Shown one piece after another: positions 1,489 through 7,861 of a stretch of 8,048 nucleotides of DNA (its first letter is position 1; every line of letters starts with the position of its first letter). The position numbers and the translations under genes are program-made. A model generated the notes under the pieces. It was not told the DNA's origin. It searched no databases and saw nothing but the letters and a program-made list of their open reading frames with translations. Source of the stretch: Nitrospinota bacterium (GTDB lineage: Bacteria; Tectomicrobia; Entotheonellia; J063); contig RFHZ01000222.1 of assembly GCA_003696125.1 (NCBI GenBank), positions 1-8,048 on the forward strand, in the 5' to 3' direction.

Positions 1489-1548
1489 ATAGGGGGTAGA
1501 GAAGGCGAGCCCAAACCGCAGATGATGTGATTGCCTGGCAGTAGGATA

Positions 1549-2421
1549 ATGCTCATGAGTGCTCATTCTGATCAGATAACCCACCGGGTTGATGGCTTGC
1601 AGGAGTGGAAGGGAAGGAAGGTTTTCAGGAGGGCAGGGGTGGTTGTCATCCTGATCACCTGGATGCTGCCTGCGCTGTTGCTGTCGACCACAGCAGCCTT
1701 TACCAATTCCCGGCAGTGGTTTTCCCCGCCTTCCCCTCTTCCCCTCAATCCTTTCCGCGGGGAGGCCAGCCTGGACAAAGGGAAATTCCTGGTCGCCAGC
1801 CGTCAACTCGGTGATCCACGCTTCAGGGAGACCGTGGTCTTCTTACTGCGCTATGACCCGCAGGGGGCGATGGGGGTGGTGATCAATCGTCCTGGCCGGG
1901 TGAAACTCTCTACCCTCTTTCCCAGCATCACCGATCTACAGCAACGAGCGGATACCCTCTACTGGGGAGGACCGGTTTCCCCAAGTCGCCTGATGATGCT
2001 CTTCCGCTTTGCCACCCCGCTGGAGAAAGCGCAGCATGTGTGGAGGGATCTTTACGTCAGCACCAGCCGCACCGTGCTCCGACGGATCCTCAAGGAGTCG
2101 AAAGAGAAGGCACAATTCCGGGTCTATGCCGGGTATGCCGGATGGGCTCCTGGTCAGCTCGACCACGAGGTGTGGCGGGGAGACTGGTATGTGGTAGATG
2201 CCGATATGGCAACCATTTTTGAGACGCCTCCTTCCCAGATCTGGCCAGAGCTGATCCGGCGCAGCACCCTGCGGAAGGCCGGCCTTCCAGAATCGACAGG
2301 GGGAGTCTATGGCCGGTCGCTGCGGGCTGCTCCTCTTTCTTCTTCCCCCAGGTACGCCTGGCGCACCTCTGGATTCACCCGGATCTCCTCTATGGTACCG
2401 GTAGCGATGGCTCGACCGTAA
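1549..2421 (+). CDS. AlgH/YqgE (UPF0301) family protein with N-terminal membrane segment and overlapping C-terminal tail
   Basis: The 290-residue product has three parts. Residues 21-28 are basic (KGRKVFRR) and are followed by a hydrophobic segment at 29-51. A Pro/Ser-rich linker runs over 57-70. The UPF0301 domain spans about 76-238, with FLVASRQLGDPRF (80-92), GAMGVVINRP (106-115), YWGGPVSPSR (138-147) and AGYAGWAPGQLDHE (194-207). Family members are usually about 180-190 residues and cytoplasmic, of poorly defined function; the name comes from an alginate regulator in Pseudomonas. Here the domain would be exported or anchored facing the periplasm (inference). There is no lipobox cysteine. 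ATG 1549 is chosen; ATG 1555 is equally possible because the only Shine-Dalgarno-like element is AGG at 1543-1545. An upstream TTG at 1531 seems less likely. The last 38 residues or so are encoded antisense to livG and look unlike the family, so they may be a read-through tail. Confidence 0.85.
   Translation: MLMSAHSDQITHRVDGLQEWKGRKVFRRAGVVVILITWMLPALLLSTTAAFTNSRQWFSPPSPLPLNPFRGEASLDKGKFLVASRQLGDPRFRETVVFLLRYDPQGAMGVVINRPGRVKLSTLFPSITDLQQRADTLYWGGPVSPSRLMMLFRFATPLEKAQHVWRDLYVSTSRTVLRRILKESKEKAQFRVYAGYAGWAPGQLDHEVWRGDWYVVDADMATIFETPPSQIWPELIRRSTLRKAGLPESTGGVYGRSLRAAPLSSSPRYAWRTSGFTRISSMVPVAMARP
2273..2288. repeat. Perfect 16-bp palindrome GGAAGGCCGGCCTTCC just past the livG stop
   Basis: It is self-complementary over all 16 bases. 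On the minus strand it begins 18 nt after the livG stop codon, so the transporter mRNA could form a GC-rich hairpin at its 3' end. There is no U-tract after it, so it is not a classical intrinsic terminator. It might act as an RNA-end stabiliser, a Rho-assisted stop or a protein-binding site. On the plus strand it lies inside the AlgH-family gene just after the conserved domain. Confidence 0.6.
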
Positions 2422-3083
2422 ACCAGCACGGTGATGCGATCGGCCAGGGCAAAGACGGCATCCATGTCGTGTTCCACCAGCAGCAGGGTATGTTCCCCTT
2501 TCAGTTCCCGGAGCAGGGCGATCATCTGGGCAGTCTCCTCTGCCCCCATGCCGGCTGTCGGCTCGTCCAGGAGGAGGAGTTTGGGCTGGGTGGCCAGGAC
2601 CATGGCGATCTCCAGTTGTCGCTGCTCTCCGTGGGAGAGACGGGCAGCCACTGTCTCTGCCCGTTCCCTCAGTCCGACCCGTTCCAGTATGGCCAGGGCC
2701 GGTTCCCGTAGCTCAGGGATGGTGTGGGCATTGCGCCAGAAGCGGAAGCTATGACCGGCTCGGGCCTGCACGGCGATGGCCACATTATCGAGGACAGAAA
2801 ACCCGTGGAAGATGCTGGTGATCTGGAAGGAGCGGGCCAGGCCCAGGGCAGAGCGGGTATGCACCGGGAGGTGGGTGATGTCCCGCCCTCCAAAGCGAAT
2901 GGTCCCGGCATCGGGACGCAACTCCCCGGCCAGTTGGGCGAGCAGAGTGGTTTTCCCGGCTCCGTTGGGACCGATGATGGCATGGATCTCTCCCGGGAAG
3001 ACGGTGAGATCGAGATGGTCGGTAGCCACCAGTGCCCCGAACTGCTTGACCAGACCCCGCGTCTCCAGCAAGGCTTCGTTCAT
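2307..3083 (-). CDS. livG: Branched-chain amino acid-type (HAAT) ABC transporter ATP-binding protein LivG
   Basis: The 258-residue cytoplasmic ATPase powers import through the LivH/LivM pore. Seen: Walker A GPNGAGKT (38-45), Q-loop Q87 in ARSFQITSIF, ABC signature LSHGEQ (149-154), Walker B LLLLDE (169-174) followed by PTAGM, and H-loop H205 in VEHDMDAV. The family features RSFQ, FSVLDN and AYLGEE near the C-terminus identify LivG rather than LivF. The ATG at 3083-3081 overlaps the livM TGA as ATGA, and GGGAGG (3098-3093) is 9 nt upstream. The frame stays open upstream to 3590, but that part is inside livM and lacks family similarity. It is the last transporter gene; no livF follows. Its final 115 nt overlap the convergent AlgH-family gene. 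Confidence 0.95.
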   Translation of the reverse strand: MNEALLETRGLVKQFGALVATDHLDLTVFPGEIHAIIGPNGAGKTTLLAQLAGELRPDAGTIRFGGRDITHLPVHTRSALGLARSFQITSIFHGFSVLDNVAIAVQARAGHSFRFWRNAHTIPELREPALAILERVGLRERAETVAARLSHGEQRQLEIAMVLATQPKLLLLDEPTAGMGAEETAQMIALLRELKGEHTLLLVEHDMDAVFALADRITVLVYGRAIATGTIEEIRVNPEVRQAYLGEEERGAARSDRP

Positions 3084-4021
3084 CGCTTCTTGCCTCCCAT
3101 CAGCAGTCCGTAAATGCCGCCTTTGGCAAAGAGCACCATCAATACCAGCAGGGGGCCGAGCAGGATCATCCAGTGCTCGGTGAAGCTGGAGAGGATATCC
3201 TCGGCCAGCAAGAGGGTGGTGGCGCCCAGCAGCGGTCCGATCAGGCTCCCCATCCCTCCCAGGATCACCATGACGATGATATCCCCGGAGCGTGTCCAGT
3301 GCATGAGCGTTGGACTGACGTACAGGGTGTGGTTTGCGATGAGGGCTCCGGCCAGGCCGGCGATTCCCCCGGCAATGACGAAACAGACCAGCTTGTACCA
3401 GAAGGTGGGGAAACCGAGGGAATTCATGCGGCGCTCGTTCTCCCGGATCCCCCGGATCACCATGCCGAAGCGGGAATGGACCAGCCGGTGACTGACGAAG
3501 AGGATTAATCCTAAGATCCCGAACACCACGTAATAGAAGACGGTGTGATTCTCGATATCGATCAGGCCACCAAAGGTGTTGCGTGACCATAAAGGAAGGC
3601 CATCGTCTCCCCCGTACCCTTCCAGGCTGAAGAAGAAGTAGTAGAGCATCTGGGCAAAGGCGAGCGTGATCATGATGAAGTAGACACCGCTGGTGCGCAG
3701 GCTGATGGCTCCGATCACGAAAGCGACCCCGGCGGCGAGAAGGGTGGCCAGGGGCCAGGCAATCCAGCCGCTCTCGACGCCATGGTAGGAGAGGATCCCC
3801 ACCGTGTACGCCCCTACACCGAAGAAGGCGGCATGACCAAAGCTGACCATGCCGCCGTACCCGAGGATCAGGTCGAGGCTGATGGCCACGATGGCGTAGA
3901 TCATGATGCGGGTAAAAAGACGGGTATAGAAGGGCTCGGAGAGGAGCGGGATGGCGGCAAAGAGGACCGGTACAAGCAGGAGAAGAGCCTGGCGGAGTTC
4001 GGGGGACGATCGCTTAAACAT
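3080..4021 (-). CDS. livM: Branched-chain amino acid-type ABC transporter permease LivM
   Basis: A 313-residue polytopic inner-membrane protein that forms half of the transport pore with LivH. Seen: a hydrophobic N-terminus from about residue 11, the hallmark GYGGMVSFGHAAFFGVGAY (54-72), RTSGVYFIMITLAFAQM (109-125), a hydrophilic GGDDGLPLWSR (137-147), and the coupling region RGIRENERRMNSLG (190-203). SGDIIVMVILGGMGSLIGP follows at 245-263, then a basic C-terminus GGKKR. Length and motif order are normal for LivM. The ATG at 4021-4019 overlaps the end of livH by 8 nt in a different frame. There is no good Shine-Dalgarno close by (AAGGG is about 13 nt away), so translation is probably coupled to livH. 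The transported substrate cannot be read from the permease. Confidence 0.95.
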   Translation of the reverse strand: MFKRSSPELRQALLLLVPVLFAAIPLLSEPFYTRLFTRIMIYAIVAISLDLILGYGGMVSFGHAAFFGVGAYTVGILSYHGVESGWIAWPLATLLAAGVAFVIGAISLRTSGVYFIMITLAFAQMLYYFFFSLEGYGGDDGLPLWSRNTFGGLIDIENHTVFYYVVFGILGLILFVSHRLVHSRFGMVIRGIRENERRMNSLGFPTFWYKLVCFVIAGGIAGLAGALIANHTLYVSPTLMHWTRSGDIIVMVILGGMGSLIGPLLGATTLLLAEDILSSFTEHWMILLGPLLVLMVLFAKGGIYGLLMGGKKR

Positions 4022-4886
4022 GGGCGGGAAACAACCCTTGTGGACGCCAGCACAACACGGCGGCCATCAGAATGTAAATGACCATGGAGGCCAGGGCCGG
4101 GGGGAGCAGGATCCGGCCAAAGGTATCGGCAACCCCGACCAGGAGCGCGGCGATAAAGGCGCCTCGAATCGACCCGATCCCCCCGATGACGATGACCACA
4201 AAGGTGAGGATCAGGATCGATTCTCCCATCCCCACTTCGACCGAGAGGATGGGGCCGGCCATCATGCCGGCCAGGCCGGCCAGAGCCGCTCCCAGGCCGA
4301 AGAGGAGGGTATAGAGGAGTTGGATGTTGACCCCGAGGGCGTTGACCATCTCCCGGTTACTCGCCCCGGCCCGGATCAGCATCCCCAGACGGGTGCGGGT
4401 AATCAGCAGATAGAGGAAGGCCGCCACCCCCAGTCCGACCACCACAATGAGCAGGCGATAGGTCGGATAAGGGACGCCAGGCAGAACGGTCACATGACCG
4501 GAGAGGGCGGCCGGCAGGGCCATGAAGTAAGCCTGGGGACCCCAGATGATGCGGACCAGCTCGTTAAAGAAAAGAATCAGGGCAAAGGTGGCCAGCACCT
4601 GGTCGAGATGATCACGCGCATAGAGGGTACGTAAGGCGATGACTTCCACCAGCATCCCGATCAGGATCGTGGCCGGGATGGCCAGCAACACCGCCAGCAG
4701 AAAGGAACCGGTGTACCGCTGCAACGTGGCGGCCAGGTAGGCCCCGATCATGTAGAGGGAACCATGCGCCAGATTGATCAGGTTCATGATCCCGAAGATC
4801 AGGGTAAGACCGGCCGCCATCAGAAAGAGCATGACACCGAGTTGCAGGCCGTTTAATCCCTGCGTGATGAGCAGTATCGGATCCAT
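4014..4886 (-). CDS. livH: Branched-chain amino acid-type ABC transporter permease LivH
   Basis: A 290-residue polytopic inner-membrane permease. Seen: the hydrophobic N-terminal helix with QLGVMLFLMAAGLTLIFGI, the family hallmark NLINLAHGSLYMIGAY (35-50), the cytoplasmic coupling segment TRTRLGMLIRAGASNREM, and a Gly/Ala-rich helix (GLAGMMAGP). GGIGSIRGAFIAALLVG follows, and the protein ends in WRPQGLFPAHV, as is typical of LivH. Normal length. The ATG at 4886-4884 is 9 nt after the binding-protein stop, with GGGGA just upstream as a modest ribosome binding site. This spacing places it in the same operon as the binding protein, livM and livG. Confidence 0.95.
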   Translation of the reverse strand: MDPILLITQGLNGLQLGVMLFLMAAGLTLIFGIMNLINLAHGSLYMIGAYLAATLQRYTGSFLLAVLLAIPATILIGMLVEVIALRTLYARDHLDQVLATFALILFFNELVRIIWGPQAYFMALPAALSGHVTVLPGVPYPTYRLLIVVVGLGVAAFLYLLITRTRLGMLIRAGASNREMVNALGVNIQLLYTLLFGLGAALAGLAGMMAGPILSVEVGMGESILILTFVVIVIGGIGSIRGAFIAALLVGVADTFGRILLPPALASMVIYILMAAVLCWRPQGLFPAHV

Positions 4887-4895
4887 CTTCCCCGG

Positions 4896-6071
4896 CTACC
4901 ACCGCATCTTGCACTGCGTATGGTACGCATCGGCATGGTCTTTAAAGGCCAGGCCGACCAGTTGGTTGGTCAAGACCCCTTCCTCGTTCCTGATCACCTT
5001 GCGGATGTAGAAGTTCTGGATGGGAAAGTGGTTGTTGTTGAAGCGGAACGCCCCCCGTACCGAGGCAAAATCGGCTTTGCGGAAGGCGGCTCGTAGCCCG
5101 TCTTTGTTGCTCAGGTCTCCTCCCACGGCCCGGATGGCGCTGTCGATCAGGAGGGCAGCATCGTAGCCCTGTGCGGCGAACAGGGAGGGGATCCGGCCAT
5201 AGGTGGTTTTAAAATCGGCCACGAACTTCCGGTTCACCGGGTTATCCAGGTCCGGACTCCAGAAGCTCGAATTGAGGATACCCAGTGCCGCATCCCCCTG
5301 CGCAGGGAGGACGGTCTGATCAAAGGTAAAGGCAGGTCCGTAGAGGGGAATCTCCTCCTTGAGCCCGGCCTGGGCGTACTGCTTGACAAAGTTGATGCCC
5401 ATGCCTCCTGGATAGAAGACAAAGACCGCTTCTGGTTTGGCGGCGCGGAGCTGGGCCAGCTCGGCCGCATAGTCGGGCTGGTTGATCTTGGTGTACACCT
5501 CGCCCACGATCTCCCCTTTAAAGTAACGTTTGAACCCGGTCAGGGCATCCTTGCCCGCCCGGTAGTTGGGGGCCATGATGTAGACCCGCTTGACCCCTTT
5601 ATCCTGCAGGTACTTCCCCATGGCCTCGTGCGTCTGGTCGTTCTGCCAGGAGACGGTGAAGAGGTTCGGTAGACAGCGGGCACCGGCCAGCGGGGAGGGT
5701 CCGGCATTGGCGCTGATCAGGAAGACCCCGGCATCGCTGATACGCTTGGCCACTGCCATCATCACGTTGGAGAAGACGATCCCGGTGATGAAATCGACCT
5801 TATCCTTTTCGATCATGCGGGTGGCCACCTGCACTCCAACTCCCGGTTTGAGTTGATCATCTCCCACGATCAGATCGACCGGCAGGCCACCCAGTTTGCC
5901 CCCGGCATGCTCGATCCCCAGCTTAAACCCGTCCAGGATATCGATGCCGAGACCGGCAGCCGGACCGGACATGGTAGCCATGTAGCCGATCTTCACCTTC
6001 TCGGCAGCCATAGCCGGTCCCACCAGCATCAATAGCGAGAGAACAACGCATACGATCATGGATCTGTTCAT
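4896..6071 (-). CDS. Periplasmic substrate-binding protein of a HAAT/LivK-type ABC transporter
   Basis: A 391-residue type I periplasmic binding protein that delivers ligand to the LivHMG complex. Seen: a Sec signal peptide at 1-22 with hydrophobic core VCVVLSLLMLVGPAMA and an AxA-type site before AEKVKIGY. The opening MATMSGPAAGLGIDILDGF (31-49) is typical of the family, followed by GDDQLKPGVGV (70-80), GIVFSNVMMAVA and FTVSWQNDQT (138-147). No lipobox is present, so it should be soluble in the periplasm. The mature part has only two cysteines, C133 and C387 (in the final QCKMRW), which could form a disulfide. The ligand is unknown; related proteins bind branched-chain amino acids, amides or aromatic acids. 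ATG 6071-6069 has AAGGAG (6084-6079) 7 nt upstream. First gene of the operon, under the strong promoter at 6175-6203. Confidence 0.92.
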   Translation of the reverse strand: MNRSMIVCVVLSLLMLVGPAMAAEKVKIGYMATMSGPAAGLGIDILDGFKLGIEHAGGKLGGLPVDLIVGDDQLKPGVGVQVATRMIEKDKVDFITGIVFSNVMMAVAKRISDAGVFLISANAGPSPLAGARCLPNLFTVSWQNDQTHEAMGKYLQDKGVKRVYIMAPNYRAGKDALTGFKRYFKGEIVGEVYTKINQPDYAAELAQLRAAKPEAVFVFYPGGMGINFVKQYAQAGLKEEIPLYGPAFTFDQTVLPAQGDAALGILNSSFWSPDLDNPVNRKFVADFKTTYGRIPSLFAAQGYDAALLIDSAIRAVGGDLSNKDGLRAAFRKADFASVRGAFRFNNNHFPIQNFYIRKVIRNEEGVLTNQLVGLAFKDHADAYHTQCKMRW

Positions 6072-6174: not shown

Positions 6175-6203
6175 ATTCTACACCGCTACCCCTGTTCTGT
6201 CAA
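6175..6203 (-). promoter_or_regulatory. Near-consensus sigma70 promoter for the transporter operon
   Basis: On the minus strand TTGACA (6203-6198, perfect -35) is followed after 17 nt by TAGAAT (6180-6175, 5 of 6 to the -10 consensus). Transcription would start near 6168 and give a leader of about 97 nt before the binding-protein ATG. This is the best promoter in the window. If the gene is regulated, a repressor acting near or downstream of it is more likely than an activator (inference). Confidence 0.65.
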
Positions 6204-6357: not shown

Positions 6358-6380
6358 CAAGACCCATAGAGATACCGCTG

Positions 6381-6386
6381 AGGAGG
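6381..6386 (+). promoter_or_regulatory. Ribosome binding site deciding the LarA-like start
   Basis: AGGAGG lies 8 nt before ATG 6395. The frame is open back to GTG 6233, but that stretch contains the promoter and hairpin and has no domain similarity. This site therefore fixes the start at 6395. Confidence 0.8.
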
Positions 6387-6394
6387 ATTTGCTC

Positions 6395-7861
6395 ATGACA
6401 GCGAAAACGGTAGAGCTCTGCTTTGGTGACGATCGTCTTTCTGTTTCTCTCCCGGAGCGAGCAACCATCATCTCTCCACCGGCTCCTCTTCCCGCCCTTC
6501 CCCATCTCGAGCAGGCCATTCGTGAGGCGATCGCTTCTCCTATCAATCACGAGCAGATCAGGAACCTGGTCAGCCCCCGCTCTCAGGTGACCATCGCCTT
6601 TGACGACCCGGTGATCCCCCAGTTTCCCATGAAAAAACCGGACCTGCGAGAGGTGGCCATCACCATCCTGCTGGAGGAGCTGATGCAGGCCGGAGTCAGG
6701 CCCCACCACATCCGTCTCCTCTGCGCCAATGCTCTGCACCGGAAGTTTACCCCTACCGAACTCTCCACCATTCTCGGCTCCCGTATCCCGCTCCGCTTCA
6801 GTCCCAGCCATCTCTTCTGTCATGATGCGGAGGACCGGGAGCACCTCATCTTCCTGGGGGAGACGGAGCGAGGAATCGAGATAGAGGTGAACAGAGCGGT
6901 CATGGAGTCGGATCAGTTCTTCTATGTCAACATCACCAGCCTCCCCTTTCACGGCGGATGGAAGTCGATTGTGGTGGGGCTGAGTAGCTACCGCAGTATC
7001 CGGCATCATCATCGCCCTTTCCGGGGGGCGAGCGGTAAATCGGTCATGGATGCCAGGCGGTCCTCCTTCCAAAAGCTCTTGTGGGAGATGGGGAGCGTGG
7101 TCGATGCCGAGCTGGCACGACAGGGGAAGCGGATCTTCACCATCGAGTCGGTGTTGAACACCGCCCAACCGCAGGAGGTGATTGCCGTCTATGCCGGCCA
7201 TATCCCGGATGTCCATGAAAAGACTCTTGATACCCTCTACCAGCAGCAGGTTGTCCCCATAGACAGGCAGTACGATGTGGCCATTTACGGCATTCCTGAT
7301 CAGGTCTACTACGCCAACCTCTCCACCATCAACCCGATCCTCGTGCGCAACCAGGCGCTCTCCTACGCCTTTGGCCTGTACCAGAACAGACCGCTCATTC
7401 GGGAGGGAGGGATCGCCATCTTTGTCCATCCCTGCCTGCCCCGTTTCCATCCCCGGCACCACCCCTCCTATATCGAATTCTTTGAACAGGTCCTTCCCCA
7501 CCTGCAGGACCCTTATGAGATCTGGGAGCTCTATGCCGACGACTTTGCCCATCGTCCTGAATATGTACACAGGTATCGCTATGCTTACGGGTTTCACGGC
7601 GTACATCCCTTAATCCTCTGGGGACAGGGGGCTTTCCCACTGCGCCATCTGGGACGGGTCTTTTTAGCCGGAGCCCGAGACGCAGAAACGGCGCGTCGCA
7701 TCGGATTTGAGCCCTTTGCTTCCCTGGAAGAGGCGATAGCAGAAGCAGAGGCAACGCTGGGGAAGGATTGCACCATTGCCTGCCTCCCCATGCCCCCGAT
7801 GTTTATCCCAGCCGTTCAGGAGGGTGAGGCATCAGCGGGAGAGGCGAAGAGGTCGCGATAG
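6395..7861 (+). CDS. LarA-like (DUF2088) protein, divergent relative of nickel-pincer lactate racemase
   Basis: The product has 488 residues; Lactiplantibacillus LarA has about 424. LarA racemises lactate using a nickel-pincer nucleotide tethered to Lys184, with His200 as nickel ligand and His108/His174 as acid-base residues. Seen here: IAFDDPVIPQFP (67-78) in place of the DDxTRPTP-type loop, ANALHRKFT (111-119) with H115 matching His108, and FHGGWKSIVVG (185-195) with K190 matching Lys184. H206 in RHHHRPF lies exactly 16 residues later, matching His200. The His174 position (K-10) is I180, and the loop arginine is absent. The C-terminal half has NPILVRNQALSYAFGLY (313-329), a His-rich FHPRHHPSY (351-359) and HRPEYVHRYRY (386-396). 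A larger LarA-like subfamily with GGWKS and HHH seems likely. Cytoplasmic, since no signal is seen. Substrate unknown; racemase or epimerase activity is inference. No larB, larC or larE is in the window. The gene is divergent from the transporter operon. Confidence 0.85.
   Translation: MTAKTVELCFGDDRLSVSLPERATIISPPAPLPALPHLEQAIREAIASPINHEQIRNLVSPRSQVTIAFDDPVIPQFPMKKPDLREVAITILLEELMQAGVRPHHIRLLCANALHRKFTPTELSTILGSRIPLRFSPSHLFCHDAEDREHLIFLGETERGIEIEVNRAVMESDQFFYVNITSLPFHGGWKSIVVGLSSYRSIRHHHRPFRGASGKSVMDARRSSFQKLLWEMGSVVDAELARQGKRIFTIESVLNTAQPQEVIAVYAGHIPDVHEKTLDTLYQQQVVPIDRQYDVAIYGIPDQVYYANLSTINPILVRNQALSYAFGLYQNRPLIREGGIAIFVHPCLPRFHPRHHPSYIEFFEQVLPHLQDPYEIWELYADDFAHRPEYVHRYRYAYGFHGVHPLILWGQGAFPLRHLGRVFLAGARDAETARRIGFEPFASLEEAIAEAEATLGKDCTIACLPMPPMFIPAVQEGEASAGEAKRSR

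Follow-up and report, generated by a model that had tools for sequence, protein, structure and literature searches.

A LarA homologue of a Nitrospinota bacterium in the branch lacking the second catalytic histidine

The window, an 8,048 nucleotide stretch of a Nitrospinota bacterium (contig RFHZ01000222.1), encodes a full-length homologue of LarA, the lactate racemase, as a complete open reading frame (6395–7861, plus strand). Judged from its residues, the function of the protein is most likely a non-classical hydride transfer with the nickel-pincer cofactor (NPN). Since the cofactor residues are kept and one of the two catalytic histidines is lost, the reaction is probably other than ordinary lactate-type racemisation. 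The features of the window and of the related loci are collected in Table 1.

Table 1. Features of the window and of related loci (residues are numbered from the ATG at 6395; elb-type loci carry their own coordinates)
Feature	Position	Strand	Basis
LarA-like CDS, 488 aa	6395..7861	+	Lar_N, NCBIfam LarAH14/15/16 and 9q2u matches
Ribosome-binding site GAGGAGG	6380..6386	+	sequence; 8-nt spacer to ATG at 6395
D71 = Asp72 of LarA / Asp73 of LarA_Sp (cofactor ribose)	6605..6607	+	21/21 relatives with the column
I74 at Arg75 position (NPN phosphate); K in LarA_Sp	6614..6616	+	profile alignment, conservation
H115 = catalytic His108	6737..6739	+	22/22
S182-L183, approximate site of 4-residue deletion removing the His174-bearing loop residues	6938..6943	+	hhalign
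H186, substitute base proposed earlier, not conserved	6950..6952	+	2/22
K190 = Lys184 (thioamide bond to NPN)	6962..6964	+	22/22
H206 = His200 (nickel ligand)	7010..7012	+	22/22
Y306 = Tyr307 of LarA_Sp (lines substrate density)	7310..7312	+	22/22
H401 = His398 of LarA_Sp	7595..7597	+	22/22
H404 = His401 of LarA_Sp (substrate site), candidate second acid/base	7604..7606	+	22/22
Peripla_BP_6 substrate-binding protein, divergent ABC transporter	4896..6071	-	E 7e-85; LivJ-type model E 1.5e-16
LivH/UrtB-type permease	4014..4886	-	profile match
Second permease (LivM-like)	3080..4021	-	ORF and position only
LivG/UrtD-type ATPase	2307..3092	-	profile match
Strong promoter-like TTGACA-17-TAGAAT facing the transporter genes	6175..6203	-	11/12 matches; 1 found vs 0.2 expected
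elb-type locus	L059:6169-14897	+	gene order
elb-type locus	L058:816-9833	-	gene order

Homology and placement of the window protein

By sequence comparison the homology of the window protein to LarA is far above chance: the Pfam Lar_N model matched with 130 bits (E 8e-38), above its curated cut-off of 23.3, and the match to LarA_Sp (9q2u) extended across 457 residues (E 2e-49). The start codon falls on the same residue as the start of a 72% identical relative (L005). An AlphaFold2 run on these two sequences gave a mean pLDDT of 33.5, too low for a usable model. The best family match, NCBIfam LarAH14/15/16 (NF052592), scored 454 bits against a cut-off of 740, whereas members above the cut-off in the sampled set reached 790–850 bits. 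In a tree of 32 rows the window protein grouped with L005, L019 and L012 (support 100/98), the one-histidine relatives, including the window protein and LarAH14/15/16, were split from the two-histidine enzymes (100/100), and LarA_Sp formed a long branch near the base. By these comparisons the window protein is a clade of its own beside LarAH14/15/16, below the cut-off of that family and within an already known branch without His174. Zero relatives turned up in the viral contigs scanned, and the plasmids scanned held only distant or canonical LarA.

The first-pass annotation had presented the loss of the histidine as new, but papers of 2020 and 2025 had already described homologues without His174 (PMC7583248, PMC12611868). 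Desguin and coworkers (2020) reported groups lacking His174 and Lys298, for which another hydride-mediated reaction was suggested, and found none of the seven racemase or epimerase activities tested in the LarAH14 of Frankia (PMC7583248). The structures of 2025 defined an Asn-type subfamily, for which one-way catalysis and carbohydrate substrates were proposed; LarA_Sp carries NPN on the lysine matching K190 and showed no racemisation of lactate (PMC12611868).

The window protein shares the shortened loop, the absence of Arg75 and the same invariant C-terminal residues with LarAH14/15/16, but it lacks the insertion near residue 258, forms a separate clade (100/98) and lies outside elb-type loci. 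With LarA_Sp and LarA_Bw (PDB 9q2u, 9q3k, 9q3j), LarA homologues which have Asn for His174 and assemble into an octamer built of tail-to-tail dimers, it has in common full-length similarity (about 30% identity), the same length class, a single catalytic histidine, the Tyr307 and His401 positions, the K-16-H cofactor pair and the YR...FHxxH motif. The residues typical of the Asn-type subfamily, His115, Tyr307 and His401, have their equivalents in H115, Y306 and H404. In contrast to these enzymes, the window protein does not have the invariant Asn, the His174 site being deleted; unlike LarA_Sp, it has Y305 for His306 and I74 for Lys76, and no glycolysis-gene context was seen. The LarA of Lactiplantibacillus plantarum shares with it the N-terminal domain and Asp72, His108, Lys184 and His200, whereas the window protein lacks His174 and Arg75 and its C-terminal domain aligns poorly around the active site.

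Active-site residues and the predicted reaction

Conservation was assessed in an alignment of the window protein with 21 relatives (22 rows; pairwise identity about 39% on average and about 28% at the lowest). Thirty-four columns were invariant, among them D71, H115, K190, H206, Y306, Y394, R395, H401 and H404. H115, K190 and H206 stand at spacings of 75 and 16, as the first-pass annotation had given. The pair that marks the LarA superfamily, the lysine of the NPN thioamide and the histidine ligand of nickel, is present as the invariant K190 and H206; of the features of a two-histidine racemase, neither a histidine at the His174 position nor an equivalent of Arg75 was found.

In profile-profile alignments with two-histidine homologues and LarA_Sp, the residues bearing His174 fall into a four-residue gap just after T181/S182. 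I180, previously taken as the match of His174, is only the ungapped K-10 position; because the His174 residues align into the gap, I180 cannot be read as a replacement of His174, and it is the loop that has become shorter. The DDxTRP-type loop does read DDPVIPQFP without an arginine, as had been noted, but the purely substrate role ascribed to that arginine did not hold: Arg75 of LarA contacts the phosphate of NPN and, in LarA_Ip, the carboxylate of the substrate as well (PMC12611868), and its role thus extends beyond the substrate. The Arg75 position is occupied by L, V, Q, I, M or A in the alignment, and by R or K in 0 of 21 relatives. As the losses of His174 and of Arg75 are common to all relatives, they represent an old shared family trait and not local decay.

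The histidines suggested earlier as replacement for His174 fared poorly. H186 lies four residues before K190 and is present also in L005, which would fit a classical two-base racemase of 2-hydroxy acids with H186 (or H204/H205) acting for His174. H186 was rejected as substitute base on conservation, the other 20 rows having N, D, T, Q or S at this position; nor were H204 or H205 supported as replacement, H204 being poorly conserved (His in 8 of 22 rows, against 21 for H205 and 22 for H206). We regard a two-base racemase of this kind as very improbable. The C-terminal His-rich stretches, to which a contribution had also been ascribed, gave a divided picture: 351–359 is mostly variable, but 386–404 happens to include H404. 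This histidine is also kept, beyond the 22 rows, in LarA_Sp and three more distant homologues. In LarA_Sp substrate-site density lies near His115, His306, Tyr307 and His401 (PMC12611868), which by alignment correspond to H115, Y305, Y306 and H404. As the second base, two residues of the C-terminal domain, H404 and Y306, are better candidates than H186, H204 or H205.

The explanation that we favour, and to which we assign about an even chance, is that the window protein belongs to the LarA superfamily as an enzyme of NPN-dependent hydride transfer, with H404/Y306 substituting on the opposite side. By homology, K190 would anchor the cofactor and H206 would ligate its nickel, and hydride would be transferred to NPN with H115, the sole base left of the classical pair, acting as base. 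The second base has been lost along with its loop residues; in its stead H404 and Y306, perhaps also H401, would bind the substrate and probably transfer protons on the opposite side. Most likely the enzyme would catalyse an epimerisation or internal redox reaction, and its substrate would be some hydroxy compound that is not a simple 2-hydroxy acid. This explanation is supported by the invariance of H115, K190 and H206 in 22 rows down to a lowest pair identity of about 28%, and by the alignment of H404/Y306 with His401/Tyr307 near the LarA_Sp substrate density. The phosphate-binding position is without R or K throughout the clade, which counts against it, as do the inactivity of the Frankia LarAH14 in seven tests and of LarA_Sp as lactate racemase. 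Of the first-pass proposal of a nickel-pincer binder acting on a different substrate, the kept cofactor Lys and His and the missing second base stood, and the different substrate is probable; the base assigned to H186, H204 or H205 was dropped.

A one-base, one-way enzyme is a serious but somewhat less probable alternative. In such an enzyme, which would still use NPN, H115 alone would be the acid/base and act on one stereoisomer in one direction, H404/Y306 serving to bind the substrate. One-way action has been proposed for the Asn-type subfamily and LarA_Sp (PMC12611868), and in 22 rows no conserved acid/base side chain stands at the His174 position; on the other hand, H404, invariant including LarA_Sp, is capable of an acid/base role. 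Whether H404 would act as second acid/base or merely bind the substrate cannot be told apart from sequence alone.

Cofactor-biosynthesis genes and gene neighbourhood

The genome search for larB, larC and larE that the first-pass annotation had proposed found larB, larE and, at a contig end, the N-terminus of larC in the window genome (4.18 Mb, 990 contigs, 94.8% complete, 8% contamination). The start of larC follows larB on one contig, where it is cut by the contig end (AYFDCFSGISGDM); it was missed by TIGR00299, its first residues being picked up by Pfam Ni_insertion. These genes support the favoured explanation of an NPN-dependent enzyme, but the genome has other Lar_N genes too, at least two of them with the His174 loop, and such two-histidine LarA genes would in themselves explain larBCE.

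Six genomes from five families (G089, G032, G052, G352, G131 and G267) have a one-histidine gene as their sole Lar_N gene, and larB and larC were present in 6/6, which also supports cofactor use. Because half of the sampled genomes have larB (over cut-off in 198 of 386, 51%; chance of five out of five about 0.04), the co-occurrence of larB is weak proof. Further support comes from larB directly upstream of the related gene in G043, from larE three genes away from the related gene in L057, and from G193 (80% complete), which at that completeness shows no larB or larC and whose only Lar_N gene, L041, encodes R, T and L where the window protein has H115, K190 and H206. L041 may have kept the LarA fold but given up the cofactor.

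For the window protein itself, a LarA-fold protein no longer using NPN is unlikely. The loss of the Arg75 equivalent would agree with it, and the two other LarA genes of the genome could account for larBCE; against it stand the invariance of the lysine, the nickel histidine and the catalytic histidine across divergent relatives, and the retention of larB and larC in the one-His-only genomes. In two related homologues, L056:219-1664 and L066:7890-9335, H115 and H206 are kept, but Glu stands in the place of Lys190, preceded by a deletion of two residues (GYSG--EGAA); in both cases the next gene encodes an SDR-like protein.

In the window a Liv/Urt-type ABC transporter, starting at 6071, diverges from the LarA-like gene; no LivF-type gene was found on the contig. 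In L049 the homologue is immediately preceded, on its own strand, by a similar transporter set that includes a binding protein. The rough chance of the transporter adjoining in both was 0.0008, a value calculated post hoc. The two binding proteins share only 23% identity, Peripla_BP_6-type proteins are generally numerous (18 and 30 per genome), and the neighbours in L005 and L047 are not the transporter set, and for these reasons the transporter was rejected as a firm clue to the substrate. We give the transport link little weight; the substrate of the proposed reaction could perhaps be imported by the adjacent Liv-type transporter. The L047 homologue neighbours a sulfonate-type ABC transporter, a 3-hydroxyacyl-CoA dehydrogenase and an OsmC-like protein. 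As L023/L052 and L019/L047, from other families, lie beside unrelated genes, the gene neighbourhoods point to no pathway shared by the clade. The window also holds an AlgH-family (DUF179) open reading frame with a C-terminal extension (1531-2421, plus strand), which runs about 115 bases into the LivG-type gene (2307-3092, minus strand) at the 3′ end of the latter.

LarAH14/15/16 genes in elb-type operons and their significance

In L058 and L059 the LarAH14/15/16 gene stands third in the order NAD-dependent epimerase, HAD hydrolase, LarAH14/15/16, ElbD-type protein (acyl reductase, AMP ligase, ACP and acyltransferase domains), NAD-dependent epimerase. Most of this order was found in L065, L064 and L062 and a shorter form in L061, and an ElbD-like gene lies about 5 kb from the LarAH14/15/16 gene in L055. 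The elbA-elbE operon of Myxococcus xanthus has a matching order, in which elbC is a gene of unknown function (PMC9131029). Since LarAH14/15/16 sits at the elbC position, ElbC is probably a one-histidine LarA homologue; for M. xanthus ElbC we infer this from gene order. No mention of a link between ElbC and LarA was found in the open literature searched. G032, G131, G267 and G352 carry no Lar_N gene besides the elb-type LarAH14/15/16 gene, and they possess larB and larC; G267 was counted through a gene that is a near-copy of that of G131, not through its own neighbourhood.

Tentatively, and with less confidence than we place in the reaction favoured for the window protein, we propose that the His174-less branch performs nickel-pincer hydride chemistry outside 2-hydroxy acid racemisation, one part of it being ElbC and the window clade a second part, perhaps with an imported substrate. 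With the window protein, the LarA homologues that lack the second catalytic histidine gain a new clade, and its invariant H404, Y306 and H401 are the targets for mutation in place of H186. Through the elbC position the one-histidine branch is tied to a pathway in which it can be tested: should ElbC depend on the nickel-pincer cofactor, species with elbC as their only LarA-like gene would be expected to make ether lipids poorly once larB, larC or larE is lost. The occurrence of LarAH14/15/16 genes at the elbC position, a side result, may matter more than the window protein itself. If the proposal is true, there would be a nickel-pincer step within bacterial ether-lipid synthesis.
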